From Asticcacaulis sp. SL142 (GTDB lineage: Bacteria; Pseudomonadota; Alphaproteobacteria; Caulobacterales; Caulobacteraceae): DNA of 64,000 bases. This document shows positions 7,693 through 25,924 of the stretch, one piece after another. The number at the start of each line of letters is the position of its first letter. Within the stretch, counting starts at the first letter, position 1. Position numbers and translations under genes: made by a program. The notes under the pieces were generated by a model. That model was not told the DNA's origin. It did no database searches and worked only from the letters and a program-made list of their open reading frames with translations. The stretch is from NCBI RefSeq assembly GCF_026625745.1, contig NZ_CP113061.1, forward strand, positions 2,815,501 through 2,879,500. The letters run 5' to 3'.

Positions 7693-8622
7693 TTAGTTGA
7701 CCGGCGCTAACCAGTTCCAGCGATCTTCCGTCTCACCGGTGAACAGGCCGTGGAAGCGCTTCTGGATCAGCTTAGTCACATCACCGGGGCCGCCAACGCG
7801 GGTCGGTATGCCGTCAACCGAACGGATCGGGGTGACTTCGGCAGCGGTACCGGTCATGAACACTTCGTCGGCCAGATAAAGCATCTCACGCGGCAGAACC
7901 TGCTCGATGACTTCGATGCCTTCGGCGCGGGCCAGTTGGATCACGGTGTCGCGGGTGATGCCGCCTAAGATCGACGCGGCCAGAGGCGGCGTAAAGATCT
8001 TGCCCTTCTGGATCAGGAACAGGTTCTCACCCGCCCCTTCGGACAGCAGGCCGTCGCGGCCGAGACCCAGCCCTTCGGCAAAGCCACGCTCACGCGCTTC
8101 ATAGCCGATCAGGTAGGACGACAGATAGTTGCCGCCGGCCTTGGCGCCAGTCGGGATCGTGTTCGGGGCGGCGCGGTTCCACGATGAGACGCAGACATCA
8201 ACGCCCTTAAGCAGCCCCTCTTCGCCCAGATAAGCGCCCCACGGAAAGGCGGCGATGGCGACATCGACCGAAACATTTTCCTTCTTGGGCGTGACCCCCA
8301 TGCCGCATTCACCCAGAAAGGCGATTGGGCGCAGATAGGCGCTTTTGAGGTTATTGGCGCGGACGATCTCGCGGCAGGCATCGTTGATCTGATCAACCGT
8401 ATAGGGCAGTTGGATATGATAAATCCGAGCCGAGTCAATCAGACGCTGCGAGTGTTCATGCAGGCGGAAAATGACCGGGCCATTGGGCGTGTCATAGGCG
8501 CGCACACCTTCGAAAACCGAGGTGCCGTAATGCAGGGCATGGGTCATGACGTGGATGGTGGCATCTTCCCACGGGATCAGCTTGCCGTTGAACCAGATCG
8601 TATCAGCGAGTTTCTTATTCAT
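7693..8622 (-). CDS. ilvE: Branched-chain amino acid aminotransferase
   Basis: The PLP enzyme that performs the last transamination to Val, Ile and Leu. 309 aa, fold-type IV. Visible are EGVRAYDTPNGPVIFRLHEH near the N-terminus, the Schiff-base lysine in PTGAKAGGNYLSSYL, LSEGAGENLFLI, and MTGTAAEVTPIRSVDG at the cofactor phosphate site. It lies between the acetolactate synthase genes and leuC on the same strand, matching its shared role in all three pathways. Confidence 0.96.
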   Translation of the reverse strand: MNKKLADTIWFNGKLIPWEDATIHVMTHALHYGTSVFEGVRAYDTPNGPVIFRLHEHSQRLIDSARIYHIQLPYTVDQINDACREIVRANNLKSAYLRPIAFLGECGMGVTPKKENVSVDVAIAAFPWGAYLGEEGLLKGVDVCVSSWNRAAPNTIPTGAKAGGNYLSSYLIGYEARERGFAEGLGLGRDGLLSEGAGENLFLIQKGKIFTPPLAASILGGITRDTVIQLARAEGIEVIEQVLPREMLYLADEVFMTGTAAEVTPIRSVDGIPTRVGGPGDVTKLIQKRFHGLFTGETEDRWNWLAPVN

Positions 8623-8811: not shown

Positions 8812-9078
8812 TCAGGCCGACAGTTTCTGAGCGGCGGCGGCCTTGCGCGCTTCTGCCACGCGCTTCAGACCATACAAACGGTCGATCTGCGCGAGCAGGG
8901 TTTCAATGCGGCGATGGGATTCCTTGGCGCGGGCGGTAACGCTTAAGCCACGGGTCTTTTCATCGATCTGATACATTTCAATCGCATCGATGAAAAAGCC
9001 GCGCCGCTCAATCAGGCCCAACACCCGCAGGAGCGTGCCGTCGAGATCGTCAATCTCAATATGAATCAAGTGGCTCAT
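8812..9078 (-). CDS. Acetolactate synthase small (regulatory) subunit, short form
   Basis: A single ACT-domain regulatory subunit expected to bind the catalytic subunit encoded just upstream. At 88 aa it is about the size of E. coli IlvM rather than the 160-180 aa IlvN with two domains. The ACT features HIEIDDLDGTLLRVLGLIERRGFFIDAI and GLSVTARAKESHRRIETLLAQIDRLYGL cover most of the protein. It starts 23 bases inside the 3' end of ilvB, indicating translational coupling. Whether it confers feedback inhibition cannot be read from the sequence. Confidence 0.85.
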   Translation of the reverse strand: MSHLIHIEIDDLDGTLLRVLGLIERRGFFIDAIEMYQIDEKTRGLSVTARAKESHRRIETLLAQIDRLYGLKRVAEARKAAAAQKLSA

Positions 9079-10744
9079 CCCAACGCTCCTCCATCATTTC
9101 CGCATTCGACGCGCCCGGCGGCACCAGCGGCCAGACGTTTTCGCGCGGATCAATCAAAATATGCAACAAGGTCGGCTTATCCGCCGCCAGCAGGCGATCC
9201 AGCGCACCATCGACCTCATCGCGGCTGGTGATACGGAAGGCATCAAGACCAAACGCCTGCGCCACCACCACAAAGTCAGGGTTATCGCTGAGGTCGATTT
9301 CCGAATAGTTTTCCTCATAAAACAGGCGTTGCCACTGACGCACCAGCCCCAGCGACGAGTTATCGAGCAGGACGATCTTCAGCGGAATACCGTAACGGCG
9401 CAAGGTCGCCATTTCCTGAATGTTCATCATGAACGAGCCGTCGCCGGACACCGTGACCACATGGTGATCCGGCAGGGCCAGCTTGGCGCCCAGACCGGCG
9501 GGTAGGCCGTAGCCCATAGCGCCGGAGCCGCCCGATGTCAGATGGGCGCGGTTTTGCAAAAATTGACAATGTTGCGCGACCCACATCTGATGCTGACCCA
9601 CGTCACAGGCGGCGACGAACTTATCACCGGCCTTTTCCGACAGCAGTTTCAGAAGGGCCGGCGCATAGATGCCGGTGCCCGGCGCGTCATAGCGGAAGGC
9701 GTGTTTCTTTTTGTCGGACTTGCACTTGGCGACCCACAGGGAGATGTCCTGCATCTTAGGCTTAAGGCCATCCAGAACGATTTTCAGGTCGCCCAGAATA
9801 CCGACCTGGGCCGCTCTCAGTTTGTTGATTTCGGCGGCGTCGATATCGACGTGAATAACCTTGGCATGGGGCGCAAAGGCCGACAGCTTGCCGGTGGCAC
9901 GGTCATCAAAGCGCGCACCCAGAACGATCAGCAGATCGGCGTCCTGAACGGCAATATTGGCCGCGCGCGTACCGTGCATCCCCAGCATACCGAGAAACAG
10001 GTCATCATTGGTTGGGATCGCGCCAAGGCCTTTGAGGGTTGAGACAACCGGAATACCGGTGCGGTCCATCAGGGCGCGCAGTTGCGGCACGGCAAAGGCC
10101 ATTTCGACCCCGCCGCCGATATAGAACAGCGGCTTATGCGATTGCTCAATCAGCTTTTCAGCCGCCTTGATATCGGCGTCATTGGGCTGCGGCGGCTGCC
10201 AGGACGGGAACGCACCCGTCGTCGGGACATCCTTGACGAAGCTTGCTGCGACATCCTTGGGGATATCGACCAGAACAGGGCCGGGACGGCCTTCCTGAGC
10301 AATTTGAAAGGCGCGCGACAGAATGGCGGGGATTTCCGCCGGATCGCGCACCAGCCATGAGTGTTTCACGATCGGCAAGGTCAGGCCCAGAATATCGACT
10401 TCCTGAAAGCCATCGGTGCCCAGCAAATGCGTGCCGACCTGCCCGGTGATGCAGACCATCGGCACCGAGTCCATATAGGCATTGGCGATGCCGGTGATGA
10501 GGTTGGTGGCACCGGGGCCGGAGGTGGCCATACAGACGCCGACCTTACCCGTCGCGCGGGCATAGGCATCGGCGGCAAAGGCAGCGCCCTGCTCATGGCG
10601 CACCAGAATATGGGTGAGGCCGGAACCTGCGAGCGCATCATAGATCGGCATGATGGCCCCGCCCGGATAGCCGAACAGGATATCCACGCCTAGAGCCCTC
10701 AGCGTCGAAATTACCAATTGTGCTCCGGTCGGTTGGTTTATCAT
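9056..10744 (-). CDS. ilvB: Acetolactate synthase large subunit
   Basis: The ThDP/FAD-dependent enzyme that makes acetolactate or acetohydroxybutyrate, the first common step to Val/Leu and Ile. 562 aa, full length. Signatures are LFGYPGGAIMPIYDAL, the catalytic Glu in RHEQGAAFAADAYARATG, the FAD-binding central domain, and the ThDP/Mg motif VSGDGSFMMNIQEMATL...NNSSLG. The paired subunit is of the short IlvM type, so the enzyme could equally be called IlvG. The start is separated from ilvC by a 202-bp gap full of hairpins. Confidence 0.95.
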   Translation of the reverse strand: MINQPTGAQLVISTLRALGVDILFGYPGGAIMPIYDALAGSGLTHILVRHEQGAAFAADAYARATGKVGVCMATSGPGATNLITGIANAYMDSVPMVCITGQVGTHLLGTDGFQEVDILGLTLPIVKHSWLVRDPAEIPAILSRAFQIAQEGRPGPVLVDIPKDVAASFVKDVPTTGAFPSWQPPQPNDADIKAAEKLIEQSHKPLFYIGGGVEMAFAVPQLRALMDRTGIPVVSTLKGLGAIPTNDDLFLGMLGMHGTRAANIAVQDADLLIVLGARFDDRATGKLSAFAPHAKVIHVDIDAAEINKLRAAQVGILGDLKIVLDGLKPKMQDISLWVAKCKSDKKKHAFRYDAPGTGIYAPALLKLLSEKAGDKFVAACDVGQHQMWVAQHCQFLQNRAHLTSGGSGAMGYGLPAGLGAKLALPDHHVVTVSGDGSFMMNIQEMATLRRYGIPLKIVLLDNSSLGLVRQWQRLFYEENYSEIDLSDNPDFVVVAQAFGLDAFRITSRDEVDGALDRLLAADKPTLLHILIDPRENVWPLVPPGASNAEMMEERWDEPLDSY

Positions 10745-10946: not shown

Positions 10947-11948
10947 TTAGCCGTTATTCTTTTCCTGCAACCAAGACATACGCGAACGCAGGTCACGGCC
11001 AGTATGCTCGATCGGGTGATCCAGATCCTGACGCATCAGGGCGTTGTAGCGCGGACGGCCAGCCATGTTCTCAAGGATCCAGTCGCGGGCAAAGTCGCCG
11101 GACTGAATGTCGTTGAGGACTTCCTGCATACGCTCACGGGTTTCTTCGTTGATGATGCGCGGGCCGGAAACCAGATCGCCGTACTTGCAGGTCTCGGACA
11201 CGAACGAGTGCATCTTGGCAAAGCCGCCTTCGTACAGCAGATCCACGATCAGCTTCAGTTCGTGCAGAACTTCGAAATAGGCGATTTCCGGACGGTAACC
11301 TGCGTCAACCAGGGTTTCAAAGCCCATCATGACCAGCTCGGTCGTGCCGCCGCACAGAACGGCCTGCTCACCAAACAGATCGGTTTCGGTTTCTTCCTTG
11401 AAGGTCGTCTCGATGACGCCGCCAACGGTACCGCCGATGCCACGGGCATAGCCCAGGGCGCGCTGAGCGGCCTTACCGGTTACATCACGGTCAACGGCAA
11501 ACAGCGACGGCACGCCGCGTCCACGTTGATATTCGCGGCGCACGAGGTCGCCTGGACCCTTCGGGGCTACCAGAATGACGTCGAGGTCGGCACGGGCATC
11601 GACGCGGCCATACAGGACCGAGAAGCCGTGGGCAAACAGGATCGACGCGCCCTTAGCGGCGTAAGGGGCGATGTCGTTGGTGTAGATTTCGGCATGGCTC
11701 ATGTCCGGCGTCAGGATGGCGATGATGGTCGCGTCCTTAACGGCGTCCTTGATTTCTGCGGTCGGCAGACCGTCGTGCTTGGCCTTTTCATAGCCAGCGC
11801 CGCCGGTGCGCACGCCGACGATCACGTCAACGCCGGAATCGCGCAGGTTCTGGGCGTGGGCGCGGCCCTGTGAGCCATAACCGACGATGGCGACGCGCTC
11901 GCCTTTCAAGCTGTCGGCGGAAACGTCGTCATTAGTATAGATTTTCAC
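10947..11948 (-). CDS. ilvC: Ketol-acid reductoisomerase (class I)
   Basis: Converts acetolactate or acetohydroxybutyrate to the dihydroxy acids with NADPH and Mg2+. 333 aa, the short class I form. The nucleotide-binding motif is [17 protein letters not shown] (about 24-40); metal and substrate residues sit in [12 protein letters not shown] and in the C-terminal knotted domain ending [14 protein letters not shown]. It is the second structural gene of the operon, after the orphan IlvD-like domain gene (113-bp gap). Confidence 0.97.
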
Positions 11949-12061: not shown

Positions 12062-12643
12062 TTAAGAGGCTGCGGTCATAACGCGTGCATATTTTTCAAG
12101 CGCCGGATGGCCCTGATAGCCGCGGGCCGGTGCTGTGAAGCTGGATTTACGGCCGGACAAGTCCGCCGTGGTGTCGATGCGGCGCGAAGTCGCATCGATG
12201 GTGATCATGTCACCATCGCGCAAACGACCGATATTGCCACCGGCCTGCGCTGCAGGGGCGCAGCTGCCAACGATCATGGCCTGGGCGGTGGAGCCTGCGA
12301 TATGGCCGTCACTGATCAGGGCGATGCCGGTGATGCCGGCGTGCTCAATGGCGTCCACGATATCGCGCAGATCGGTTTTGTGGCGAATGATGATGGCAGT
12401 GCCGGAGGCGATCTCACCGGCGCGGATGGCGGCAATGGCCGTCATTTCGTCCTCGAAAACACGCGCCTGACCTTCGAAGCGCTCACCGAAGCCTGACAGT
12501 TTTAAAATGCCGCCAACCGGCGCAATTGATCCATGAAGAATGGCGAAACCCGACGATACTACAGGTGACACGGCCTCAAGCGGCGCGGCCATAAAGGCTG
12601 GCGCTTCAGTGGCGGTTGGGGTCATCTTGATTTGCGCGTTCAT
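12062..12643 (-). CDS. Stand-alone IlvD/Edd C-terminal (swivel) domain-like protein
   Basis: 193 aa that align only with the C-terminal third of dihydroxy-acid dehydratase. FAILHGSIAPVGGILKLSG corresponds to [17 protein letters not shown] of the true IlvD at 13278. Next come GQARVFEDEMTAIAAIRAGEI, IALISDGHIAGSTAQAMIVG and DGDMITIDATSRRID. The Fe-S N-terminal domain is absent. The [11 protein letters not shown] loop is replaced by RHKTDLRDI, and the DGRFSG serine, thought to be the catalytic base, is Ala116 in DGHIAG, so it is very probably not a dehydratase. The start at 12643 has a GAAGAG site; 12658 (TTG) is the alternative. It is the first structural gene after the attenuator. A regulatory or scaffold role is inference only. 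Confidence 0.75.
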   Translation of the reverse strand: MNAQIKMTPTATEAPAFMAAPLEAVSPVVSSGFAILHGSIAPVGGILKLSGFGERFEGQARVFEDEMTAIAAIRAGEIASGTAIIIRHKTDLRDIVDAIEHAGITGIALISDGHIAGSTAQAMIVGSCAPAAQAGGNIGRLRDGDMITIDATSRRIDTTADLSGRKSSFTAPARGYQGHPALEKYARVMTAAS

Positions 12644-12681: not shown

Positions 12682-12711
12682 AAAAATCCCCGCTTCCGGG
12701 GGCGGAGCGGG
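12682..12711 (-). terminator. Attenuator (intrinsic terminator) of the ilv operon
   Basis: On the minus strand CCCGCT pairs with AGCGGG and CC with GG (one bulged A) around a C-rich loop, followed by five Ts. It lies 41 bases after the leader peptide stop and 39 bases before the first structural gene, so transcripts ending here would never reach the operon. Confidence 0.82.
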
Positions 12712-12763
12712 AGACTGATTTAGGCCATTAATTTGGTCTGAAACCGTTTGGTCACCACTCCGC
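12702..12763 (-). promoter_or_regulatory. Antiterminator pairing of the ilv leader
   Basis: GCGGAGTGG (12755-12763, the last three sense codons of the leader peptide) can pair over nine positions, with one G-U, with CCGCTCCGC (12702-12710), the 5' arm of the attenuator. A ribosome stalled at the Leu/Ile/Val codons would leave the first arm free and block the terminator; one that reaches the stop codon would cover it and let the terminator form. The pairings are seen in the sequence; the mechanism follows classical ilv attenuation. Confidence 0.75.
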
Positions 12764-12829
12764 GATCATGGGGCGTACGACGCCCACGATTAGTAGCGAT
12801 ACAATGGACACCATGCTGACAAACGACAT
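12752..12829 (-). CDS. ilv operon leader peptide, 25 aa
   Basis: A short frame from ATG at 12829 to TGA at 12752-12754. Eleven of its 25 residues are Val, Ile or Leu, with the run SLLIVGVV at residues 11-18 and two consecutive CTA leucine codons plus two GTA valine codons, rare choices in this GC-rich DNA. An AAGG lies about ten bases upstream. The position in front of an intrinsic terminator and the matching antiterminator arm in its last codons identify it as a regulatory leader peptide rather than a functional protein. The plus-strand frame over the same bases (12768-12959) is taken as spurious. Confidence 0.85.
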   Translation of the reverse strand: MSFVSMVSIVSLLIVGVVRPMIAEW

Positions 12830-13277: not shown

Positions 13278-15143
13278 ATGCCTGCCTATCGTTCCCGCAC
13301 TACCACCTTTGGCCGCAACATGGCAGGCGCACGCGCCCTATGGCGGGCGACCGGCATGACCGATTCCGATTTCACCAAGCCGATTATCGCGGTCGTCAAT
13401 TCCTTCACCCAGTTCGTGCCGGGCCATGTCCACCTGAAAGACTTAGGCCAGATGGTGGCGCGTGAGATCGAAAAAGCCGGCGGTGTCGCTAAGGAATTTA
13501 ATACCATCGCGGTTGATGACGGCATCGCCATGGGCCACGGCGGGATGCTCTATTCTTTACCCTCACGCGATCTGATCGCCGATAGTGTTGAGTATATGGT
13601 CAATGCCCACTGCGCCGATGCGATGGTCTGCATCTCCAACTGCGATAAGATCACACCGGGCATGCTGATGGCCGCCATGCGTCTCAATATTCCGGCGGTG
13701 TTCGTCTCCGGCGGGCCGATGGAGGCCGGTAAGGTCGTGTGGCCCGATAAGGACGGGGTGGCCAAGACCCATGCGCTCGATTTGGTTGATGCCATGGTTC
13801 AGGCTGCTGATGACAATATTTCCGACGCGCAGGTTAAGGCCGTCGAAGAAGCCGCCTGTCCAACCTGCGGGTCGTGTTCGGGCATGTTTACCGCCAATTC
13901 GATGAACTGCCTGACCGAAGCGCTGGGGCTGTCTTTGCCCGGGAACGGTACGGTTCTGGCCACCCATTCGGACCGCGAGCGCCTGTTTAAAAATGTCGGT
14001 CAGATGATCGTAGATATCACCAAGCGCTATTATGAGGGTAATGACGAGACTGTGTTGCCGCGCTCAATCGCCTCCTATGCCGCGTTTGAAAACGCTATGC
14101 GCCTTGATGTGGCTATGGGTGGCTCAACCAATACGGTTCTGCACCTTTTGGCCGCGGCGTCTGAGGCCGGTGTCAATTTCAAGATGGCCGATATCGACCG
14201 GATTTCGCGTTCTACCCCGTGCCTGTGTAAGGTGGCCCCCGCTACGTCGGATGTGCATATCGAAGATGTCCATCGTGCCGGCGGCATCATGTCAATCCTG
14301 GGCGAGCTGGCCCGCGGCGGGTTGCTGAACACGGAATTGCCGACCGTCCATTCGCCGACGCTCGGCCATGCGCTGGCCTATTGGGATATCCGCGTCACCA
14401 ACGACGAAGAGGTGTCAGAGTTCTTCAAGGCCGCCCCCGGCGGGGTGCGCACCACGCAGGCCTTTTCGCAGTCAAAACGCTGGCCCGAACTGGACAAAGA
14501 CCGTGAAAGCGGCGTCATCCGCTCGGTCGAGCATGCCTTCACCAAGGACGGCGGCTTGGCGGTGCTGTACGGCAATATCGCTGAAAAAGGCTGCATCGTG
14601 AAAACGGCGGGTGTCGACGAGTCCATCTGGAAATTCTCCGGTCGGGCGCGCGTGTTTGAATCTCAGGAAGACTCGGTTGACGCCATCCTGAAGAACCAGA
14701 TCAAGGAAGGCGACGTCGTTGTCATCCGTTACGAAGGCCCCAAGGGCGGGCCGGGTATGCAGGAAATGCTGTACCCGACCTCGTACCTCAAATCCAAGGG
14801 CATGGGTAAGGTGTGTGCGCTTTTGACCGACGGACGGTTTTCGGGCGGCACGTCGGGGCTGAGCATCGGCCACGTCAGCCCGGAAGCGGGCGAAGGCGGG
14901 GCGATTGCTCTGGTCGAAGAGGGGGATATCATCGACATCGATATCCCCAACCGCACCATTGAATTGCGCGTCACGATGGAAGAGCTGGCCCACCGCCGTG
15001 CCAAAGAAGAAGCCCGCGGCAAGGACGCCTTTACGCCCAAGAACCGTGAGCGTTATGTTTCAGCCGCCCTGCAAGCCTACGCGGCGCTGACCACCTCCGC
15101 CGATACCGGCGCCGTGCGTGATCTCAATCAGCTCAAGCGTTGA
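13278..15143 (+). CDS. ilvD: Dihydroxy-acid dehydratase
   Basis: The Fe-S dehydratase that forms the 2-keto acids of Val and Ile/Leu synthesis. 621 aa, full length. Cluster cysteines lie in [12 protein letters not shown] and [17 protein letters not shown]. The C-terminal swivel domain has [14 protein letters not shown] and [23 protein letters not shown], both lacking in the orphan domain at 12062. The ATG at 13278 is preceded by GGATAAGGATGAG. It is transcribed away from the ilv operon; its 3' end directly abuts the convergent CBS gene with no spacer. Confidence 0.97.
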
Positions 15144-15602
15144 TCAGCGGATAAAGCTTAGGGACGGATCCCAGGCGCGGCTGTGTCCGCCGGGTTGGGC
15201 AACGGCGGTTTCGATATCGCCGGTCAGGTGTCGGTCGTGATGCTCACGAGCAATGTCGCCCAGGCTGATGATGCCACAGACGCGCTTATGCTCATTGAGG
15301 ACGACCAGTCGGCGAATCTGCTCGGCCTTCATGACTTCGGCAGCTTCGCGGATGGTGTCGTCCTCAAAACAGTAGGTGATGTGGTCGGTCATGACGCGCA
15401 TGACGCTTTCGTCGCAACTCATGCCGGTGGCGATACCGCGCACGACGATATCGCGATCGGTCACCGCACCTTTCAGCCGGTCGTTTTCTCCGATCGGCAG
15501 ATAGCCCAGATCATGGTCACGCATGATCTCAGCCGCCTGACGCAGGGTCGTGTCGGGAGCGATGATTTTGAAGCTGGTGCTCATAAGGTCTCTAACGCGC
15601 AT
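15144..15602 (-). CDS. CBS-domain-pair protein
   Basis: 152 aa consisting of two CBS motifs (about 8-60 and 72-128): VRDLMSTSFKIIAPDTTLRQAAEIMRDHDLGYLPI, then TDRDIVVRGIATG, then VMTDHITYCFEDDTIREAAEVMKAEQIRRLVVLN. Such stand-alone pairs usually bind adenine nucleotides and act as energy sensors; the target here is unknown. The ATG at 15602 has a perfect GGAGG five bases upstream, better than the ATG at 15614. No membrane segment or fused domain. Confidence 0.88.
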   Translation of the reverse strand: MRVRDLMSTSFKIIAPDTTLRQAAEIMRDHDLGYLPIGENDRLKGAVTDRDIVVRGIATGMSCDESVMRVMTDHITYCFEDDTIREAAEVMKAEQIRRLVVLNEHKRVCGIISLGDIAREHHDRHLTGDIETAVAQPGGHSRAWDPSLSFIR

Positions 15603-15626
15603 AATAACCTCCATAGGATATGGGTT

Positions 15627-15857
15627 TCAGATAAACGGGGTCGGGTCATGCGGAGCATCGAGCGCCCCGCGTTTCAGGCGCTGACCCAAGGCAATGGCGG
15701 CAAGCGCCATGCCCGCGCCAATAAGGCCGCCCAGCGCCACCCTTTGCATAACCGGACGGCGCGCCAGCGGCCCCTGAGTTAAGGGGCGGGCCAGAGCCTG
15801 CGCCATGGTCATATAGGGCAGGGCGGTAGCCTGAAGTGTCAGCAGACGTTTAAGCAT
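15627..15857 (-). CDS. Small hypothetical protein with one membrane segment
   Basis: 76 aa from the ATG at 15857, which follows GAGGAA at good spacing; a longer frame to 15917 has no ribosome binding site. The protein is basic with a hydrophobic stretch (about residues 40-57, VALGGLIGAGMALAAIAL) that could span the membrane. The family is not recognised. It lies 24 bp upstream of the CBS gene on the same strand, so the two may be co-transcribed. Confidence 0.5.
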   Translation of the reverse strand: MLKRLLTLQATALPYMTMAQALARPLTQGPLARRPVMQRVALGGLIGAGMALAAIALGQRLKRGALDAPHDPTPFI

Positions 15858-16164
15858 GGCGCGTTTCCTCAACACGAAATTAAACAGGTTCGCGACGAAT
15901 ACTAAGATCGTGCGCATAAAAATGCAGGATTTGAGAGATCATTTTAAATTAAAAAGCACGGTCTTTAAATCGTTGGGTTTGTAAATGACGACAATTTGAT
16001 TTTCTGAATATGAAATCGTTGCTGTTTCGGCTGCGTGCTGTTTATTTTCGGTGAAATGGATGGCGTTATTTGCTATATTTTTACTTAAGCTCATATGTGC
16101 GCCATAATAATCTTATGGCGTATGCATTAGGCTTTAAGATTGGAATTTCAACGGAGACGTTCAA
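15858..16164. other. AT-rich gene-free stretch
   Basis: 307 bp between divergent small genes, clearly AT-rich at 15930-16090. Probably promoter DNA for both directions. I see no RNA gene or strong motif. Confidence 0.4.
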
Positions 16165-16353
16165 ATGCCGCACCCTTCGTTCCCTCGCCATTCGGCCAAA
16201 AATGCGCGCCCTGCCTCAAACCGCAGGGCCTATGATGACCGCGATAATGACTACGTCCTGTCCTATGATCCGCGCAGCAATGCCCGTCATCAGCGCAGTG
16301 AAGACGAAGACTATGCCAATACGCTCGATCAGGATCGACGAAGTCATAAATAA
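16165..16353 (+). CDS. Small hydrophilic hypothetical protein, 62 aa
   Basis: The ATG at 16165 is preceded by ACGGAGA at suitable spacing. The product is highly polar and rich in Asp, Arg, Ser and Asn (AYDDRDNDYVLSYDPRSNARHQ), with no hydrophobic core, suggesting a disordered protein. Another frame through the same DNA (16070-16381) is less gene-like. It lies 32 bp ahead of the gene at 16386 and may form an operon with it. Function unknown. Confidence 0.45.
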   Translation: MPHPSFPRHSAKNARPASNRRAYDDRDNDYVLSYDPRSNARHQRSEDEDYANTLDQDRRSHK

Positions 16354-16385
16354 CCCCCCGATTACCCGATTGGAGACCTAAAAAG

Positions 16386-16631
16386 ATGACACAGGTAGCT
16401 CACGCTCGCCCCGTTTCAGGCCCGATGTTCAGCCTGCCGGTGCTTATTTTTTCAACGGCGGTTTTGGGGCCGGTTCTTAAATCGTTTTACGACGGCTTTT
16501 TCCACGGGCCTTATCAATATAGGCGCTGCCTGAAGGGTGATAAGAAACTGCGTGATGACCTGAGTGAAGATCAGGTGGATCACATGGTCGAAGACAGTTT
16601 TCCGGCCAGCGACCCGCCCAGCAGCTATTAA
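16386..16631 (+). CDS. Small conserved protein with DSFPASDPPS tail
   Basis: 81 aa. A hydrophobic segment (about residues 13-32, GPMFSLPVLIFSTAVLGPVL) could be a membrane anchor. It is followed by a polar region ending in LSEDQVDHMVEDSFPASDPPSSY. The DSFPASDPPS ending recurs in small alphaproteobacterial proteins of unknown function. The ATG has TTGGAGA upstream. A strong terminator follows at once. Confidence 0.65.
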   Translation: MTQVAHARPVSGPMFSLPVLIFSTAVLGPVLKSFYDGFFHGPYQYRRCLKGDKKLRDDLSEDQVDHMVEDSFPASDPPSSY

Positions 16632-16665
16632 AAAAACCGGCGGAGAGATTCCGCCGGTTTTTTTT
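16630..16665. terminator. Bidirectional terminator
   Basis: AACCGGCGGA pairs with TCCGCCGGTT over ten bases around a GAGAT loop, with T/A runs on both sides. It serves the convergent small genes at 16386 and 16864. Confidence 0.93.
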
Positions 16666-16864
16666 AGTATTTGTGCACGTCTGAGGGTTTACGCTCATCA
16701 AATCCGGAAACCTCATCTCCAGACTTGTGGTCAAGATCGTCCGGGATGATCTGGTCGGCGGCATTATCTGGGTAGTCAGGCTCATTGAATCCCGATGGAT
16801 CACGATGATCGCGCTGTGTTTTAGGGGTTATCACCGGTTCAGCGGGTTTGGGATTGTCGGGCAT
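16664..16864 (-). CDS. Small hydrophilic hypothetical protein, 66 aa
   Basis: From the ATG at 16864 (a GTG three codons earlier is the alternative) the product is extremely polar, rich in Asp, Pro and Lys (FNEPDYPDNAADQIIPDDLDHK), with no predicted fold, signal or membrane segment. It shares the low-complexity, acidic character of the protein at 16165. It ends within the T-run of the shared terminator. Function unknown. Confidence 0.45.
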   Translation of the reverse strand: MPDNPKPAEPVITPKTQRDHRDPSGFNEPDYPDNAADQIIPDDLDHKSGDEVSGFDERKPSDVHKY

Positions 16865-17052
16865 GGCGCGCACCTGAAAAAAGGTTAGGGTTGCCTCACC
16901 ATGCGCCGTCGCCGATAAGGTTGATATGTAAGGTCATGAATTTGTGCGCAAAAAAGAGGTAAGTGCATGGGTGCGCGCGCTTAGCCTTGACATTGTGGCT
17001 TAAGGATTTAGCGTCAACTGAAACCAGTTGTCATTGTCCCGGAACCTTTGCC

Positions 17053-18693
17053 ATGCGCACTCAAATCCTTACCCTGTCTGTTAGCCTGATGGCGCTGGCC
17101 GCGGCCGCCGGGGCTGAGCCGGTCATTAGCGGTGCGCGCATTTCTGAGGACGTAAAGGTGCTGTCATCTGACGCATTTGCCGGTCGCGGTGTGGCCACCC
17201 CTGCCGAAGACAAGGTCGTCGCGTTTGTGTCGAAGGCCTATAAGGACGCAGGCCTTGCGCCGGGCGGTGAAAATGGCGGCTGGACGCAGACCGTAAAATT
17301 GCGCAAGTTTCAGGTCAGTGATCCGACTTTGAGCCTTAACCTCAAGGGGCAGCCTATGCCGCTGGTGCAGGGCGAAGACATTACGGCCTCGACACGCGGC
17401 GCTCTGGGGGCGGTGAGTTTTAAGGACACGCCGCTGGTGTTTGCCGGTTATGGCGTGACGGCCCCAGAGCGCGGTTGGGATGATTTCAAAGACGTTGATA
17501 TCAAGGGCAAGATCATTGTGGTTCTGATCAATGACCCCGATTTTTATCAACCAGACGCTCAGACCTTTAACGGCAAAGCCATGACCTATTACGGCCGCTG
17601 GACCTATAAGTTCGAGGAAGCCGCCCGCAAAGGGGCCGCCGGGGTCATGATCATCCACGACAGTGCCGCCGCCTCTTACGGCTGGAATACCGTCAAAAAC
17701 TCCTGGTCGGTGGCGCAGTTCGATATTGTCCGCCCCGACCCTTCGGCCACTAGCCCCAAGCTGGAAGCGTGGATTAGCGCCGACGCGGCCACTAAGATAT
17801 TTGCGGCGGCGGGGCTTGATCTCAATGCGCTCAAAATCGCGGCCCGGTCCAAGGATTTCAAGCCCGTGCCGCTGGACGGAATTACCCTGTCCGGCGGCTA
17901 TAAGGTCGCAGCCGAAGAGGTGGTCAGCCGCAATATCATCGGCCAGCTCAAAGGCGCCAAGCGCCCCGATGAGACCGTCTTTTACATGGCGCATTGGGAT
18001 CATATCGGGATTGGTGCGCCGGACGCTGAGGGCGATGCCATCTTTAACGGCGCGGTTGATAATGCCACGGGTGTGGCGGCCCTGATCGAACTGGCGCGCG
18101 CCTTTAAGGCGTCGGGTAAAACCCCTGACCGTACGGTCGCCTTCATTGCGGTCACCGCCGAAGAAAGCGGTTTACTGGGCTCGGAATATTACGCTTCTAA
18201 CCCGATCTATCCACTGGCGAAGACCGTGGGTGGCATCAATATGGATGCGCTCAATGTCTCAGGCCGCACACGCAATGTCGAAGTGGTCGGTTCCGGCCAG
18301 TCGTCGCTGGAGGACGATCTGAAAACCCTGGCGGGGGGGCAGAATCGCGTGCTGACGCCTGATGAAACGCCCGAAGCCGGCTACTTCTTCCGCTCGGATC
18401 ACTTCCCGCTGGCCAAGCGCGGTGTGCCGGTGCTTTATGCTGCCTCTGGTCTGGATATGGTCGAGGGTGGCGTGATCGCCGGTCGCGCCTTTGATGAGGA
18501 TTACCGCAAAAACCGCTACCATCAGGCCAATGACGAATGGTCGGCGGATTGGGATCTGTCGGGTCTGGCGGAAGATGTGGCGCTCTATTATCAGTTAGGG
18601 GCTAAGCTGGCCAACTCGACTGTCTGGCCGCAATGGCGCGAAACCTCGGAGTTCAAAGCCGCCCGCGACAAAACGGCGGCGGCGCGCCCATAG
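17053..18693 (+). CDS. M28-family zinc aminopeptidase, exported
   Basis: A periplasmic or secreted metallopeptidase, 546 aa. The signal peptide is MRTQILTLSVSLMALAAAAGA. A PA-like insert (about residues 110-220) precedes the peptidase domain. Likely zinc ligands are visible in MAHWDHIG, NGAVDNATGVAALIELA, AVTAEESGLLGSEYYA, INMDALN and RSDHFPLAKRGVPVLY, the complete M28 set. The frame is open to 16963, but the ATG at 17053 starts exactly at the signal peptide. It appears monocistronic. Confidence 0.92.
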   Translation: MRTQILTLSVSLMALAAAAGAEPVISGARISEDVKVLSSDAFAGRGVATPAEDKVVAFVSKAYKDAGLAPGGENGGWTQTVKLRKFQVSDPTLSLNLKGQPMPLVQGEDITASTRGALGAVSFKDTPLVFAGYGVTAPERGWDDFKDVDIKGKIIVVLINDPDFYQPDAQTFNGKAMTYYGRWTYKFEEAARKGAAGVMIIHDSAAASYGWNTVKNSWSVAQFDIVRPDPSATSPKLEAWISADAATKIFAAAGLDLNALKIAARSKDFKPVPLDGITLSGGYKVAAEEVVSRNIIGQLKGAKRPDETVFYMAHWDHIGIGAPDAEGDAIFNGAVDNATGVAALIELARAFKASGKTPDRTVAFIAVTAEESGLLGSEYYASNPIYPLAKTVGGINMDALNVSGRTRNVEVVGSGQSSLEDDLKTLAGGQNRVLTPDETPEAGYFFRSDHFPLAKRGVPVLYAASGLDMVEGGVIAGRAFDEDYRKNRYHQANDEWSADWDLSGLAEDVALYYQLGAKLANSTVWPQWRETSEFKAARDKTAAARP

Positions 18694-18794
18694 ATTAATC
18701 GTAGTTAACCTGTGGTTCAGTATAGGTTTTAGGTCGCGATTCAGGTTTCCACCGTAATTTCATACACCAACCCCTATGTCAGGTGAGTGTGCGT

Positions 18795-19568
18795 ATGATG
18801 TTAACCTCCTTGTTTTCGACCCGCGAACAGGTTCTGGGCCAGGCGCTCTACGATGCCATCCCTATGATGGAATTTGACATCAAGGGCACGATCGTATCGG
18901 CTAATACCGACTTTCTCACTCTATTGGGTCATCGCCTCAATGAACTGAGCGGCAAGCCCTATACGGTCATTTGCGATCTGGCGACCGTTGCTGATGGCCG
19001 CGCCGAAGATATCTGGCGCCGGGTGTCGGGAGGTGAAACCCTTCAGGAAACGCTGAAACTGCAAGCCAGAGACGGCAGCGCCCGCTGGATGCAGGCCTGC
19101 CTGCTGCCGGTCAGGGCCTCAATGGGCAAGATGGAGCGCGTCATTCTGGCCGGGTGCGATATTACGGCCATCAAGCAAAAGGAACTGGCCAGCCGTAACC
19201 TGCTGAAAGCCCTGTCGGATACCCATGCCGTGGTCGAATTTTGCGCGCGCGGACAAATCCTCTATGCTAATGACAGCTTTCTCAAACTTACCGGCTACAG
19301 CCTGAATGAGTTGCTGGGCCGCCCCCATCGCAAGCTGTGCGAATATGACCGGGGCTTAAGCAGCGAATATTCGGACTTTTGGGACGGACTGGCCAAAGGG
19401 CAGGCTCGCCACGGTGAATGTGTCCGGTACGGTAAGGATGGCCGTCACATCGCGCTTTCTGCGAGTTATAATCCGGTGCTGGATGATGCGGGTGGGGTGG
19501 CTAAGGTTGTGCTTTATGCCACCCCGATCGCGCGCAGCGATATGGACAGCCTCAGGGACGCCGCCTAA
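18795..19568 (+). CDS. Double PAS-domain protein without output domain
   Basis: 257 aa made of two PAS/PAC units and nothing else. PAS1 runs from about residue 14 to 125 (FDIKGTIVSANTDFLTLLGH...GCDITAIKQKE), PAS2 from about 130 to 245 (ARGQILYANDSFLKLTGYSLNELLG...YNPVLDDAGGVAKVV). No kinase, GGDEF, methyl-accepting or transmembrane region is present. The two units parallel the sensor half of the chemoreceptor 135 bp downstream. The ATG at 18795 has AGGTGAG seven bases upstream; the GTG at 18783 is an alternative. Ligand and partner unknown. Confidence 0.82.
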   Translation: MMLTSLFSTREQVLGQALYDAIPMMEFDIKGTIVSANTDFLTLLGHRLNELSGKPYTVICDLATVADGRAEDIWRRVSGGETLQETLKLQARDGSARWMQACLLPVRASMGKMERVILAGCDITAIKQKELASRNLLKALSDTHAVVEFCARGQILYANDSFLKLTGYSLNELLGRPHRKLCEYDRGLSSEYSDFWDGLAKGQARHGECVRYGKDGRHIALSASYNPVLDDAGGVAKVVLYATPIARSDMDSLRDAA

Positions 19569-19702
19569 TCAGATGCGAATTAGTCGAAAAACATAATAAA
19601 AATTACTGGAGGGGCCAAGTTTAATGGCTGATTAAGTTCACTTTGATATCTTGGTTTCATAAGTTGCTTAAAGCAACGGTCGTATTATACCAGGGAAGCA
19701 AT

Positions 19703-21187
19703 ATGTTTTTTTCCGCCCAGTCTGCCGATTATCGCTCCATTATGGATGCCCTTAGCCTGTCGCAGGCGGTCATTGAGTTTACCCCGGCAGGTCATGTTCT
19801 GACCGCCAATGCCAATTTCTGTGACCTGTTGGGTTACAATCTGAAGGAAATTGAAGGCAAGCACCACAGCCTGTTTTGTGCCCCCGATTACATCAACAGT
19901 CCGGACTATGCGCAATTTTGGCGCGATCTGGCGTCGGGGCAATTCAAAAGCGATGAATTCAAACGTATCGGCAAGGGCGGCAAGGCCGTCTGGATACAGG
20001 CGACCTATAATCCGATCCGTGACAAGTCCGGACGCGTCACCAAGGTCATTAAATTCGCCACCGACCTCACCGCGATTAAATCCCGCAATGATGATTTTCA
20101 GGGCAAGATCAAGGCCATTGACCGAGCGCAGGCGGTCATTGAGTTTACCCCGACGGGCGACATCCTGACGGCCAATGAGAATTTTTTGACAGTCATGGGT
20201 TATGATTTGAGCGAAATTCAGGGCCGTCATCACCATATGTTCTGCGATCCTGCCTATATAGCGACCGAAGACTATAAGGCTTTCTGGCGTGATCTGGCGT
20301 CGGGTCAGTTTCAGGCGGCGGAATATAAGCGTCTGGGTAAGGGCGGGCGCGAAGTCTATATTCAGGCCTCCTATAACCCCATTTTCGATGACACCGGCGC
20401 GGTCGTAAAGGTCGTTAAATTCGCGACTGACCTCACCCCGGTCGTGTTGCGTCGCCTGCGTAATGATGCCTTGAGCCGTGATATCAATGACGATCTGGGC
20501 GGGGTGATTGGCGAAATCACCGAGGCCGCCGGTATGGCGTCCAATGTCGCCGAGGCATCGTCTGACACCAGCGGCATCATCAATTCGGTAGCGGCCGCGA
20601 CCGAAGAACTGAGCCAGAGCGTGCGTGAGATTTCCGTCAGCATGGTTGTTACCCGCGACAATGTCGAAGGTATCTTCAAGCATGCCGAAAGCGCCAGTGC
20701 CTTTGCGCTAAATCTTGATCAATCGGCCTCGGCCATGACCGGCATTGTCACCCTCATTCAGGATATAGCCGGTCAGATTAATCTGCTGGCGCTCAATGCC
20801 ACCATTGAGTCCGCCCGCGCCGGGGAGGCCGGTCGTGGCTTTGCGGTGGTGGCGTCCGAGGTCAAGTCGCTGGCCAATCAGGCGGCGCGCTCGACCCAGA
20901 CCATTTCCGAAGAAATTACCCGCATGCAGACGGTCACAGCCGATGTGGTCAACGCGCTGGGTGAAATCTCAGGCGCCATGACGATTGTGATGGAAAGTGT
21001 CACCAGCGTCGCCGGGGCGATTGAGCAACAAAATGCCGCCACCGGCGAAATCTCCGGCAATATGCAGTCGGCGGTCGATGCCATTCACCGTATCGAAGAG
21101 AGCTTGGTGCGCATCGACCACAGCTTCCGTCAGGTCACTCTGGCGTCAGAGCAGGTGAAAAAGAACGTCGAGGTTCTGGCGGCTTAA
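19703..21187 (+). CDS. Cytoplasmic PAS-PAS methyl-accepting chemotaxis protein
   Basis: A soluble chemoreceptor of 494 aa. Two PAS domains (about residues 8-120 and 130-245) have almost identical starts ([18 protein letters not shown] and [18 protein letters not shown]), then a methyl-accepting signalling domain (about 270-494) has the hairpin tip [32 protein letters not shown]. No transmembrane segment, as in BdlA/Aer2-like receptors, so it probably senses a redox or cytoplasmic signal. The ATG at 19703 follows GGGAAG. No other chemotaxis gene is nearby. Confidence 0.93.
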
Positions 21188-21198
21188 ACACACCACAC

Positions 21199-21960
21199 TT
21201 AGCCAAACACCGCTTTCAGCAGATCCGTCGTGCGGCTGGCCGGATTGGTGCGGATGGCGCGTTCTTCGGTACCGACATAGTGGAACAGCCCGTCCAGCGC
21301 CTTACCCACGGCATATTCACTCAGGTAAGTCTTGGGGTCTTTCTTGATGTAGGCCCCAAGGCCGTTGCGCTCGATGGCATGGTCTAATGACTGCACAGCC
21401 CCGGTCGATTGCAGGGCCTCGCCCATCGGCGGCGTGAACAAGGTAATCAGGCGGGGCGTCGTCGATTTCTGCAAATATTGCGTGCCGGAGGTCGGCCCGC
21501 CTCTGACAATGCCAACCACATCGGTCAGGGTGATCGATTTAATCGCATCCAAAAACAGATCCTTGGCGACAGGTGCGGCGACTTCGGCGGCGTGATTGAC
21601 CTTTTCATGCACTTCATCGAGCGCGCCGGACATGCCAAGCGGTTTTAAGGTCTTCTGAACCTTGGCAATGGTTTTGGGCAGGGGAATGCGGATCAGGTCA
21701 TCGCCCCAGTAACCATCATCGCGGCCGACTCGGGTGACGGCGGCGACCGCCCCAAGGGATAGGGCCTCACGGATGCCTTTGTCGGCGGTGGCTTTGGTGA
21801 CGCCTACAGGCAGGCCCGTCGATGAGGTTTTTTTGGAGGTCTTGCCGATGGCGGCTTTAAGCGCGTTTTCCAGTTCATCCTGAGTTTGCGCTATAGCACT
21901 TCCCGCCGTCAGGCCCATCGCCATAAGACCCAAAAGCAGTTCGCGTCTGTAATTATCCAT
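21199..21960 (-). CDS. DUF4197 family exported protein
   Basis: 253 aa. The N-terminus MDNYRRELLLGLMAMGLTAGSAIAQTQ is a signal peptide, with an RR pair that might suggest Tat export but without the full motif. The remainder matches the DUF4197 family, seen in VTKATADKGIREALSLGAVAAVTRVGRDDGYWGDDLIRIPLPKT-type segments and the C-terminal ALDGLFHYVGTEERAIRTNP. Function unknown. It is convergent with the chemoreceptor gene and divergent from cysQ. Confidence 0.8.
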   Translation of the reverse strand: MDNYRRELLLGLMAMGLTAGSAIAQTQDELENALKAAIGKTSKKTSSTGLPVGVTKATADKGIREALSLGAVAAVTRVGRDDGYWGDDLIRIPLPKTIAKVQKTLKPLGMSGALDEVHEKVNHAAEVAAPVAKDLFLDAIKSITLTDVVGIVRGGPTSGTQYLQKSTTPRLITLFTPPMGEALQSTGAVQSLDHAIERNGLGAYIKKDPKTYLSEYAVGKALDGLFHYVGTEERAIRTNPASRTTDLLKAVFG

Positions 21961-22114
21961 GATCCGCCCTTAGCCTTTTGTTCATTGCCTGATTAGCAAA
22001 GCTTAGCTGTCAGATAATGATATATCGCTTTTTTGACGCAGCCAGAAATGCTTTTTACGCGACACCTGATCGGGCGCGCGGTACAGGTGCGCCTTGTAAA
22101 AACGAGACCGGATT

Positions 22115-22942
22115 GTGACGACTGAACTTGCGACCACGATTTTAAGTGAGACTGACCTGCTCAGGCTTGGCCAACTGGCCATCGACGCCGGGGCCGAGAT
22201 CATGCGCATCTATGAGGGCGAGTTCGATGTCCAGATCAAGGGCGACCAAAGCCCGCTGACCCAGGCCGATCTGGCCTCCCATGCCGTGATTGCTGAGGGG
22301 CTGGCCCAAGATTTTGGCCATATTCCGGTGGTGTCCGAAGAGGACACCGACAGCCATAATGCTCCCGAAGGCGAGACGGGGTCGTTCTTTTTGGTCGATC
22401 CGCTCGATGGCACCAAGGAATTCATCAATCGCCGTCCGGATTTCACTGTCAATATCGCCCTGATCCAAAACCAGCGCCCAAAATACGGCATCATCTATGC
22501 GCCTGTGCGCAAAGCCCTCTATATCGGTGATGTGGTGTCGGGTCTGGCCTACCGGATCGAAGCTGAGCGCCTTGACGGGCTGACGCTGGCTGATTTCGCG
22601 CCGCTTAAGGTTCGGGCCGCACCACAATCTTTGGCTGCAGTCTGTTCCCTGTCGCACAATTCGCCGGAAACCGAAGCCTATCTTGATCTTTACGGTGTCT
22701 CGGAACGGGTCGCCATCGGGTCATCGCTGAAGTTCTGTCTGGTGGCCGAAGGGCAGGCTGATCTTTATCCGCGCCTTGGGCCGACGATGGAATGGGACAC
22801 GGCGGCCGGTGATGCCATTCTGACGGCCGCGGGTGGTAAGGTTTTATCGCGTGACGGTGCGCCGCTCATCTATGCCAAGCCCCGCTTTTTTAACCCTGAA
22901 TTTTTCGCGCAAGGCGACGTCGCCTTCAAAGTGCCGAACTGA
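22115..22942 (+). CDS. cysQ: 3'(2'),5'-bisphosphate nucleotidase
   Basis: Hydrolyses 3'-phosphoadenosine 5'-phosphate, the by-product of sulfate assimilation, to AMP; an inositol-monophosphatase-fold enzyme. 275 aa. Metal-binding motifs are EEDTD (about residue 74), DPLDGTKEFINR (about 95) and the C-terminal WDTAAGDAIL. The start is GTG at 22115. It lies three bases upstream of cysD, so it heads the sulfate-activation operon, matching its role in removing PAP from that pathway. Confidence 0.93.
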   Translation: MTTELATTILSETDLLRLGQLAIDAGAEIMRIYEGEFDVQIKGDQSPLTQADLASHAVIAEGLAQDFGHIPVVSEEDTDSHNAPEGETGSFFLVDPLDGTKEFINRRPDFTVNIALIQNQRPKYGIIYAPVRKALYIGDVVSGLAYRIEAERLDGLTLADFAPLKVRAAPQSLAAVCSLSHNSPETEAYLDLYGVSERVAIGSSLKFCLVAEGQADLYPRLGPTMEWDTAAGDAILTAAGGKVLSRDGAPLIYAKPRFFNPEFFAQGDVAFKVPN

Positions 22943-22945
22943 ATC

Positions 22946-23866
22946 ATGAGCAATATTATTACCTACCCCCTGTCGGACCACTTAAAGCGGTTAGAGGCCG
23001 AGTCGATTGAGATCATGCGCGAAGTCGCCGCCTCGTTTGAGAACCCGGTCATGCTCTATTCGATCGGTAAAGATTCCGGCGTCATGCTGCACCTGGCGAT
23101 GAAGGCGTTTTATCCGTCCAAGCTGCCTTTCCCGCTGCTGCATGTCGATACGCGCTGGAAATTCGCTGACATGATCCGCCACCGCGACATGATCGCGGAT
23201 AAGTACGGCGTGAAACTTCTGGTCTACACCAACCCGGAAGGCGTGGAACGCAACATCAACCCGATCGATTCCGGTTCCTCCCTGCACACCCAGATCATGA
23301 AGACCGAAGCGCTTAAAAAAGCGCTCGATCTTTACGGCTTCGATGCCGCCTTTGGGGGGGCCCGCCGTGACGAAGAAAAATCGCGCGCCAAGGAACGGAT
23401 TTTCTCCTTCCGCTCCGCCGGCCACGTCTGGGACCCGCGCAACCAACGGCCGGAACTGTGGAACCACTATAATACCCGCATCAATAAGGGTGAGACCATC
23501 CGCGTCTTCCCGCTCTCCAACTGGACCGAGCTTGATATCTGGGAATATACCCGCGCCGAGAACATCCCGATTGTGCCTCTGTACCTGTCGGCGCCGCGTC
23601 CGGTGGTCAAGCGCAGCGGTATGCTGATCATGCGTGACGATGAGCGCATGCCGCTTAATCCCGGCGAAGATGTCGAAATCCGTAATATCCGCTTCCGCTC
23701 GCTGGGCTGCTATCCGCTCAGTGCGGCTGTGGAGTCCGAGGCCGATACGCTGGATGACATCATAGCTGAAATGCGCTCAAGCCGCTCGTCCGAGCGTCAG
23801 GGGCGTCTGATTGACTCCGACGAGTCCGCCTCGATGGAAAAGAAGAAAAAAGAAGGGTATTTTTAG
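22946..23866 (+). CDS. cysD: Sulfate adenylyltransferase subunit 2
   Basis: The ATP-PP-loop subunit of ATP sulfurylase, making APS from ATP and sulfate together with CysN. 306 aa, normal length. The PP-loop [13 protein letters not shown] is at about residue 40, followed by [26 protein letters not shown] and the conserved C-terminus [19 protein letters not shown]. It lies between cysQ and cysNC; the 74-bp gap before cysNC contains a strong hairpin. Confidence 0.97.
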
Positions 23867-23871
23867 GGCCT

Positions 23872-23905
23872 CAGACAAAAGTTGCCCTGCGGGTACTTTT
23901 GTCTG
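23872..23905. repeat. 11-bp hairpin between cysD and cysNC
   Basis: CAGACAAAAGT and ACTTTTGTCTG form a perfect 11-bp stem, with an inner CCC/GGG pairing around TGC. It begins five bases after the cysD stop. No T-run follows on the plus strand, so it probably modulates mRNA stability or the cysD:cysNC ratio rather than ending transcription. Confidence 0.6.
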
Positions 23906-23940
23906 GCTCGATACCTTTAGCTGAATGTATGGAATTTTAG

Positions 23941-25863
23941 ATGTCGCTTGAGACCGCTACCCTGACCGCCGATGCCGCACCTAAGACGGCCACGCTTGAG
24001 AAAAGCCTGCTGCGCTTTTTGACCTGCGGTTCCGTCGATGACGGCAAATCTACCCTGATCGGGCGGTTGCTGTACGACACCAAGCTGATCTTTGACGACC
24101 AGCTTCAGTCGCTGGAGCGCGATTCCAAAAAACACGGCACGACCGGCGAAGATATCGACTTCGCGCTGCTGGTCGATGGCCTTGAGGCCGAGCGTCAGCA
24201 GGGCATCACCATCGATGTCGCCTACCGTTTTTTCAGCACGCCTAAACGCTCGTTCATCGTGGCCGATACGCCGGGCCATGAACAATATACCCGCAATATG
24301 GCCACCGGCGCGTCCAATGCGGATCTGGCCATTATCCTGATCGACGCCCGCAAAGGCGTGCTGCCGCAGACCCGCCGCCATTCGTTTATCGCCTCTCTGC
24401 TGGGCATCAAGCATGTGGTCGTGGCGGTCAATAAGATCGATCTGGTTGACTATGATCAGGCGCGGTTTGAGGAAATCCTGACGGCTTACCGCGAATTTGC
24501 CGACCAACTTGGCTTTACCTCCATTCAGGCCATTCCGCTGTCGGCGCGCTTTGGTGAGAACATGATCACCCGCTCAGGCCTCATGCCCTGGTATGACGGG
24601 CCATGCCTGTTGGAGCATCTCGAAGCCGTTGATGTCGAAAGCGTTGACGCCCAGAAACCCTTCCGCATGGGCGTGCAGTGGGTCAATCGCCCGAACCTCG
24701 ATTTCCGCGGCTTTTCCGGCACTATCCATTCGGGCGTGATCAAGCCCGGTGATGAATTGGTGGTCGCCGGTTCAGGTAAATCCTCGGTGCTGAAACGCAT
24801 CGTCACCGCCGATGGTGACCTGAGCGAGGCCCGCGCCGGTGCGGCGGTGACGCTGGTGCTCAATGACGAAATCGATGTGGCGCGCGGCGACACCTTTGCC
24901 CACCCGCAAAGCCGCCCCGAAGTCTCCGACAGCTTTGCCGCCCATATCCTGTGGATGACCGACGAAGCCTTGCAGGTTGACCGGCCCTATCTGATCAAGC
25001 TCGGCCATAACTATATTCCGGCGCGTGTCACCCGTATCGAGCATAAGATCAATATCAACACCCTGGAACACGAAGGTGCGCATAAGCTTGATCTCAATGA
25101 GATTGGCCTGTGCCATGTGCGCCTGTCGTCGCAGACGGCTTTCGATGCCTATGACCTGAACCGCCATAACGGCTCATTCATCCTGATCGACCGCTTCACC
25201 AATGCGACGGCGGGTGCGGGCATGATCACTCAGGGGCTTAACCGCGCCACCCACGTCCACCGTCAGGATCTTACGGTCGGTAAGCAGGCGCGTCAGGAAC
25301 TGAACGGTCATAAATCGGCGGCCCTGTGGCTGACCGGTCTGTCCGGGTCGGGCAAATCGACCATCGCCAATCTGGTGGTGTCGGAACTGCACGCCCGCGG
25401 CATTCGCACCATGATGCTGGACGGCGACAATATCCGTCACGGCCTCAATAAAGACCTCGGCTTTACCGATGCTGACCGGGTGGAAAATATCCGTCGCGTC
25501 GGTGAGGTGGCCAAGCTGTTTGTCGATGCGGGCACGGTCGTGTTGTGTTCATTCATTTCGCCGTTTGCGTCTGACCGGCAAATGGTGCGCGACCTGTTTG
25601 AGGACGGTGAGTTCTTTGAGGTGTTCATCGACACCCCCATTGAGGACTGCATCAACCGCGACCCCAAGGGCCTCTATGCCAAGGCGCTTAAAGGCGAGAT
25701 CAAGAACTTCACCGGCCTTGACAGCCCCTATGAAGCGCCTGAAAATGCTGAGATTGTCGTCAAGACCGAGCGCATGACCGCCGCCGAAGCCGCAGGCCAG
25801 ATCATCGAGCGCCTGCGCGTGTCGGACCTGTTAAGCATGTATGATGGCGACTGGAGCATATAG
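23941..25863 (+). CDS. cysNC: Bifunctional sulfate adenylyltransferase subunit 1 / APS kinase
   Basis: A fusion of the GTPase subunit of ATP sulfurylase with APS kinase, so it couples APS synthesis to PAPS formation. 640 aa. The CysN part (about 20-440) has the GTPase P-loop GSVDDGKSTLIGRLLYD, DTPGHEQYTRNM and NKID. The CysC part (about 455-640) has the P-loop GLSGSGKSTIAN and FISPFASDRQMVR. The fusion is common in alphaproteobacteria. Last gene of the cysQ-cysD-cysNC unit. Confidence 0.96.
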   Translation: MSLETATLTADAAPKTATLEKSLLRFLTCGSVDDGKSTLIGRLLYDTKLIFDDQLQSLERDSKKHGTTGEDIDFALLVDGLEAERQQGITIDVAYRFFSTPKRSFIVADTPGHEQYTRNMATGASNADLAIILIDARKGVLPQTRRHSFIASLLGIKHVVVAVNKIDLVDYDQARFEEILTAYREFADQLGFTSIQAIPLSARFGENMITRSGLMPWYDGPCLLEHLEAVDVESVDAQKPFRMGVQWVNRPNLDFRGFSGTIHSGVIKPGDELVVAGSGKSSVLKRIVTADGDLSEARAGAAVTLVLNDEIDVARGDTFAHPQSRPEVSDSFAAHILWMTDEALQVDRPYLIKLGHNYIPARVTRIEHKININTLEHEGAHKLDLNEIGLCHVRLSSQTAFDAYDLNRHNGSFILIDRFTNATAGAGMITQGLNRATHVHRQDLTVGKQARQELNGHKSAALWLTGLSGSGKSTIANLVVSELHARGIRTMMLDGDNIRHGLNKDLGFTDADRVENIRRVGEVAKLFVDAGTVVLCSFISPFASDRQMVRDLFEDGEFFEVFIDTPIEDCINRDPKGLYAKALKGEIKNFTGLDSPYEAPENAEIVVKTERMTAAEAAGQIIERLRVSDLLSMYDGDWSI

Positions 25864-25924
25864 CCTGTGTAGGCCTTATGGTCTACCGGCCAGCCTCCCT
25901 ATGTGCGGTTTATATAGATCAGCC

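Follow-up and report, generated by a model that had tools for sequence, protein, structure and literature searches.

A truncated descendant of operonic ilvD heads the branched-chain amino acid operon of Asticcacaulis

Introduction

Aconitase-type enzymes such as LeuC/LeuD consist of separate large and small subunits, and in LeuD and the small subunit of AcnX type II a swivel-type domain is a separate protein located beside pathway genes. A different arrangement is seen in trypanosomes, in which the AdoMetDC prozyme is a pseudoenzyme paralogue that regulates the active enzyme (PMC5201418). In the literature that we searched, we found no description of a lone C-terminal domain of IlvD, and the initial annotation of the locus described here likewise knew of no function for such a domain.

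Here, we describe a protein that consists of this domain (referred to as the orphan) and is encoded in a 64,000-nucleotide stretch of the Asticcacaulis sp. SL142 genome (NZ_CP113061.1, positions 2,815,501 to 2,879,500; referred to as the window). With the short type of IlvD (EC 4.2.1.9; PRK00911/TIGR00110), the orphan shares the sequence of the C-terminal domain, the fold (Z 22), and the place before ilvC. In contrast to that enzyme, it lacks the N-terminal domain, the Fe-S cluster, the Mg site, the active-site loop, and the base Ser, and has the new invariant residues F33, H37, F52, and R155. Its likeness to the LeuD and AcnX type II small subunits is one of general description rather than of alignment. 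Together with a large subunit, these proteins make up a complete active site, whereas the orphan has no large-subunit gene and its catalytic residues are gone. Like the AdoMetDC prozyme, the orphan is a dead relative that coexists with an active enzyme for the same reaction. However, the prozyme is a full-length dead copy with a regulatory role, whereas the orphan is a single domain for which regulation is only putative. The RraA proteins, which are regulators of RNase E, share the swivel fold with the orphan (Z ~9), but no sequence relation was detected and there is no common gene context.

The orphan corresponds to the C-terminal domain of IlvD

The orphan has a disordered tail (residues ~1-27) followed by a folded domain (~30-193). 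Residues 30-192 match PF24877 (ILV_EDD_C) in Pfam (E = 1.3e-28, 100 bits, cut-off 27.7), the C-terminal beta-barrel ("swivel") domain of IlvD/EDD dehydratases. No match to PF00920, the N-terminal domain that holds the Fe-S/Mg site and the cluster cysteines, was found in the orphan using Pfam and NCBIfam, and the protein starts at the C-terminal domain. The best NCBIfam matches start near position 376 in a dehydratase model of 559 positions, placing the orphan in its last third. Similarly, BLASTP aligned the orphan with only the C-terminal third of the adjacent full ilvD, at 31% identity. The initial annotation had described a protein that aligns with this third of IlvD alone and lacks the Fe-S domain, and the domain searches agree with that description. 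Sequence identity to operonic and other short IlvDs is about 38-42%. Genes of this kind are readily labelled ilvD, which calls for caution in annotation.

Structure prediction of the orphan alone, a check proposed in the initial annotation, gave an AlphaFold2 model with a mean pLDDT of 80, in which residues 1-27 are disordered and the core reaches ~90. This model matches the C-terminal domain of solved dehydratases with a Z score of 22, indicating a confident IlvD C-terminal domain fold. The next-nearest fold after the dehydratases is that of the RraA proteins (Z ~9 over 109 residues; Foldseek, VIA-align), which would fit a role outside the pathway, for example one in RNA metabolism like that of RraA. 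We consider such a role very improbable. What is shared with RraA is the common swivel fold alone, sequence identity is ~12%, and neither Pfam nor NCBIfam yielded an RraA match at E values up to 1. In addition, the orphan is never found outside the ilv operon in the 25 Asticcacaulis genomes searched.

The orphan is the first gene of a presumably attenuated operon

In order of transcription, the operon comprises an I/L/V-rich leader, a terminator hairpin with a T run, the orphan, ilvC, ilvB, a small ACT subunit, and ilvE (Table 1). This gene order agrees with the initial annotation, which placed the orphan first after an attenuator and ahead of ilvC and ilvB; the complete ilvD that it reported next door on the opposite strand is also present, with its motifs intact. 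The start of the leader was inferred from relatives, and a shorter alternative beginning with the ATG at 12814 is not conserved. The 88-aa subunit was assigned to the ACT domain by its sequence and gene place rather than by a family search.

Table 1. Features of the ilv locus, with coordinates given as positions in the window
Feature	Coordinates	Strand	Remarks
Leader peptide, MSFVSMVSIVSLLIVGVVRPMIAEW	12752..12829	-	25 aa, 44% I/L/V; presumed control peptide of the attenuator
Intrinsic terminator of the presumed attenuator (CTCCCGCTCCGCCCCCGGAAGCGGGGATTTTT)	12682..12713	-	GC hairpin and T run
Orphan IlvD C-terminal (swivel, PF24877) domain protein	12062..12643	-	193 aa; ATG at 12643, stop at 12062; conserved in 25/25 genus genomes
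ilvC, ketol-acid reductoisomerase	10947..11948	-	Gene after the orphan in the operon
ilvB/ilvG-type acetolactate synthase large subunit	9056..10744	-	
Small ACT-domain (ilvM-like) subunit, MSHLIHIEIDDLDGTLLRVLGLIERRG...	8812..9078	-	88 aa
ilvE, branched-chain aminotransferase	7693..8622	-	
Complete long-type (PRK12448) ilvD	13278..15143	+	621 aa; divergent; cluster and active-site motifs intact, including TDGRFSGG

All 25 Asticcacaulis genomes searched share this layout of the operon. Using our cut-offs, we detected a leader in 22 of the 25 genus genomes, ending in RPMxxEW or a similar sequence. An equivalent hairpin with a T run precedes the orphan in all 25. A search of Rfam gave no match for the leader region (12682-12829). 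The anatomy of the leader and terminator suggests that they attenuate transcription in response to branched-chain amino acids. Downstream, ilvE is ~1.5 kb away from the ACT gene in loci L122, L123, L131-L136, and L139, with room for another gene.

The orphan is retained throughout the sampled genus

The initial annotation had proposed a profile search for stand-alone copies of the domain and their neighbors. In 25 of 25 Asticcacaulis genomes searched, the orphan is found immediately before ilvC, always as a single domain and with a divergent full ilvD nearby. Outside the genus, no lone PF24877 domain was present among the matches listed for 22 genera of the family. In samples from the order, class, and phylum, there were no clear lone copies among the matches listed, in which full enzymes ranked first. 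The short frames seen outside the genus appear either to lie at contig ends, as judged by coordinates alone, or to be broken genes (G208). A search of plasmids returned matches that were all below 60% identity, some of them under an annotated ilvD and some at no annotated feature. It is possible that independent or diverged lone copies exist elsewhere.

The G208 gene is an operonic ilvD (L164, 6529-8220) in which codon 239 is an in-frame TAG and the frame is otherwise intact. This TAG is either a nonsense mutation or an assembly error, and the gene is the only match listed for this draft genome.

The orphan protein is under purifying selection

Conservation of the ORF across all 25 genus genomes places it far beyond what would be expected by chance. 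The orphan evolves much faster than its operon neighbors: identity among orphans drops to 33-48% between subclades, compared with ~83-90% for ilvC and 83% for ilvD. In pairwise comparisons covering the whole gene, dN/dS spans about 0.04-0.17 among the closest five genomes and 0.07-0.13 in other subclades, with most pairs at about 0.09-0.17. The values for the pathway enzymes are mostly 0.01-0.06, and those of the orphan are mostly several-fold higher. In the closest five genomes, dN/dS is 0.078 over the folded domain versus 0.39 over the tail. All indels are in frame, and no stop or frameshift is present. Sixteen residues are invariant across the orphans, which, at 33-48% identity, is not merely a consequence of recent descent.

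The dS of the orphan is near that of ilvD and is not reduced; therefore, the constraint acts on the protein and not on RNA. An RNA element inside the gene is ruled out for the same reason.

These data bear on two alternative explanations. A decaying ilvD pseudogene would also be truncated, lack catalytic residues, and evolve faster than its neighbors. However, its retention in 25 of 25 genomes, the absence of stops and frameshifts, and a dN/dS of ~0.1 refute this explanation, to which we assign next to no probability. Homologs restricted to close strains and a dN/dS near 1, which the initial annotation had named as the marks of decay, were not observed; homologs are instead genus-wide. Alternatively, translation alone might matter, with the ORF carrying ribosomes or coupling translation and the protein itself having no role. 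In every genome, the orphan does come immediately after the terminator and before ilvC. Nevertheless, the dN/dS of 0.08 over the folded domain, the invariant residues, and the in-frame indels make this explanation very improbable. Moreover, the gap between the orphan and ilvC varies, from 113 nt in the window to ~40 nt in L116, and is thus ill-suited to coupling.

The orphan descends from the ilvD of its own operon

Outside Asticcacaulis, the same operon begins with a full short-type ilvD, followed by ilvC, ilvB, and the ACT subunit, in genus g3 of this family and in further families of the order. An operon headed in this way by a full ilvD also occurs in a family farther away within the phylum. 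The ilvC and ilvB of g3 share ~64-70% identity with their window counterparts, compared with 47-52% for g20, which has a different, ilvB-ilvH-ilvC set. A similar terminator is located ahead of the full operonic ilvD at most other loci checked, and an I/L/V-rich leader is present at some.

In trees of the C-terminal domain, the 15 sampled orphans form one clade (100/98). This clade is nested among the operonic ilvDs (100/96 and 99/99 in two trees) and is far from the adjacent long ilvD. The orphan branches are long, and no sister group is resolved inside the operonic-ilvD clade. Because of these trees and the matching operon place elsewhere, we conclude that the orphan arose in place from the ilvD of this operon: its ancestor was the first gene of an attenuated ilvD-ilvC-ilvB-ilvM operon and was truncated from the N-terminal side. 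A duplicate of the neighboring long ilvD is ruled out by the tree and the 31% identity.

This origin changes how the position of the gene should be read. The initial annotation had taken the place of the orphan to suggest a retained role tied to the pathway. The orphan is indeed kept under selection in a pathway operon, but the place itself is inherited and therefore says little alone about function. For the same reason, its location behind the attenuator supports a link to attenuation less strongly than had been assumed.

Catalytic residues are lost and new residues are gained

We compared the 25 orphans with 36 short full-length relatives. In the window orphan, the (Y)EGPKGGPGM segment is deleted and DGRFSG has become DGHIAG, with Ser replaced by Ala, both of which had been reported in the initial annotation. 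The loss of the loop holds across the genus, as GPKGGPGM is absent in all 25 orphans. The change to Ala, however, is not genus-wide, and the base Ser of DGRxSG is kept in 2 of 25. Glu occupies the Mg-ligand position in two orphans, and no orphan has both this Glu and the Ser. The orphans have also lost the E-M-L after EGPxGGPGM, the Glu of PEA, and the His of GH, among others. In published dehydratase structures, the Mg ligands include the Glu of the lost loop (PMC5770437, PMC11316719), and in D-xylonate dehydratase the role of base has been proposed for Ser490 (PMC5770437). The orphan thus shows the pattern of a pseudoenzyme derivative, having lost catalytic residues and kept purifying selection.

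Conversely, F33, H37, and F52 are present in 25 of 25 orphans and R155 in 24 of 25, and all four are minority states in full enzymes. The loss of the catalytic face together with these new near-invariant residues speaks for a new binding function and not for lingering catalysis.

A split dehydratase, in which the orphan would join a separately encoded N-terminal domain, or the one in the full IlvD, to form an active enzyme, has a parallel in the split of the related aconitase-type enzymes (LeuC/LeuD). The initial annotation had noted that finding such an Fe-S N-terminal domain would overturn its interpretation. In the 25 genus genomes, a PF00920 search revealed no lone Fe-S N-terminal domain gene; every match was a full dehydratase or a frameshifted full gene, the latter being the edd of the window genome and the ilvD of G109. 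The Mg-ligand loop is lost in 25 of 25 orphans and the base Ser in 23 of 25. We therefore regard a split enzyme as highly improbable.

Proposed function of the orphan

Judging from these sequence comparisons, the single-domain orphan probably has a new, non-catalytic role in the branched-chain pathway or close to it. We tentatively favor a model in which this truncated operonic ilvD is non-catalytic, co-expressed with the pathway, and acts by binding a likely pathway protein. In this model, the intact long-type ilvD next door would supply the dehydratase activity. The operonic copy has lost its Fe-S domain, loop, and catalytic residues but has kept the swivel barrel and gained genus-specific invariants. 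Translation of the leader would control expression of the orphan together with the pathway: when branched-chain amino acids are short, attenuation would be relieved and the orphan made with IlvC, IlvB, IlvM, and IlvE. The orphan would then work by binding, most likely to a candidate pathway protein. Within the same pathway, the likeliest target would be the IlvD dimer, which is the ancestral partner fold, followed by IlvC or IlvB/M. Binding may adjust the activity, stability, or assembly of the target. Remodelling of the surface that once faced the active site makes IlvD a less convincing partner.

A second possibility, which we hold with less confidence, is that the swivel domain is a dedicated regulator or sensor of the pathway. 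As the attenuated first gene, it would bind a pathway enzyme or metabolite via a new site (F33, H37, F52, and R155) and add a post-translational layer on top of transcriptional control. A small-molecule sensor in the narrower sense, in which the barrel with these four residues binds a branched-chain amino, keto, or dihydroxy acid and signals to an enzyme or regulator, seems unlikely. The orphan-specific invariants, including a His and an Arg, suggest a new site, and expression of the operon already appears tied to branched-chain amino acids. However, the lone domain contains no known ligand site, and in this family the substrate sits between the two domains (PMC5770437).

Whether it binds a protein, as we favor, or a metabolite, the orphan is a clear-cut instance in which a catalytic gene has shrunk in place to one apparently non-catalytic domain and has been retained by every sampled member of the genus. 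It offers a testable example of pathway enzymes turning into regulators. If the orphan controls the pathway, this would be branched-chain control of a kind not described in the literature searched.

Other gene breaks and rearrangements

In G068 (L168), the segment equivalent to window positions 15144-25870 is inverted. Its flanks carry the 3' end of the real ilvD and a further copy of this end, which is inverted and spans 262 bp (87-89% identity). The window genome has no such ilvD 3' fragment, and one is also found in G060 and G149. In G109 (L119), ilvD and ilvB are each in two frames, suggesting sequencing errors and not real breaks. The edd gene of the window genome, encoding 6-phosphogluconate dehydratase, consists of two overlapping frames of 459 and 240 aa (L003, G000:C1:3216283-3219666, about 180-1998). 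In the other genus genomes edd is in one frame, and the break in the window genome is either a frameshift or a sequencing error.
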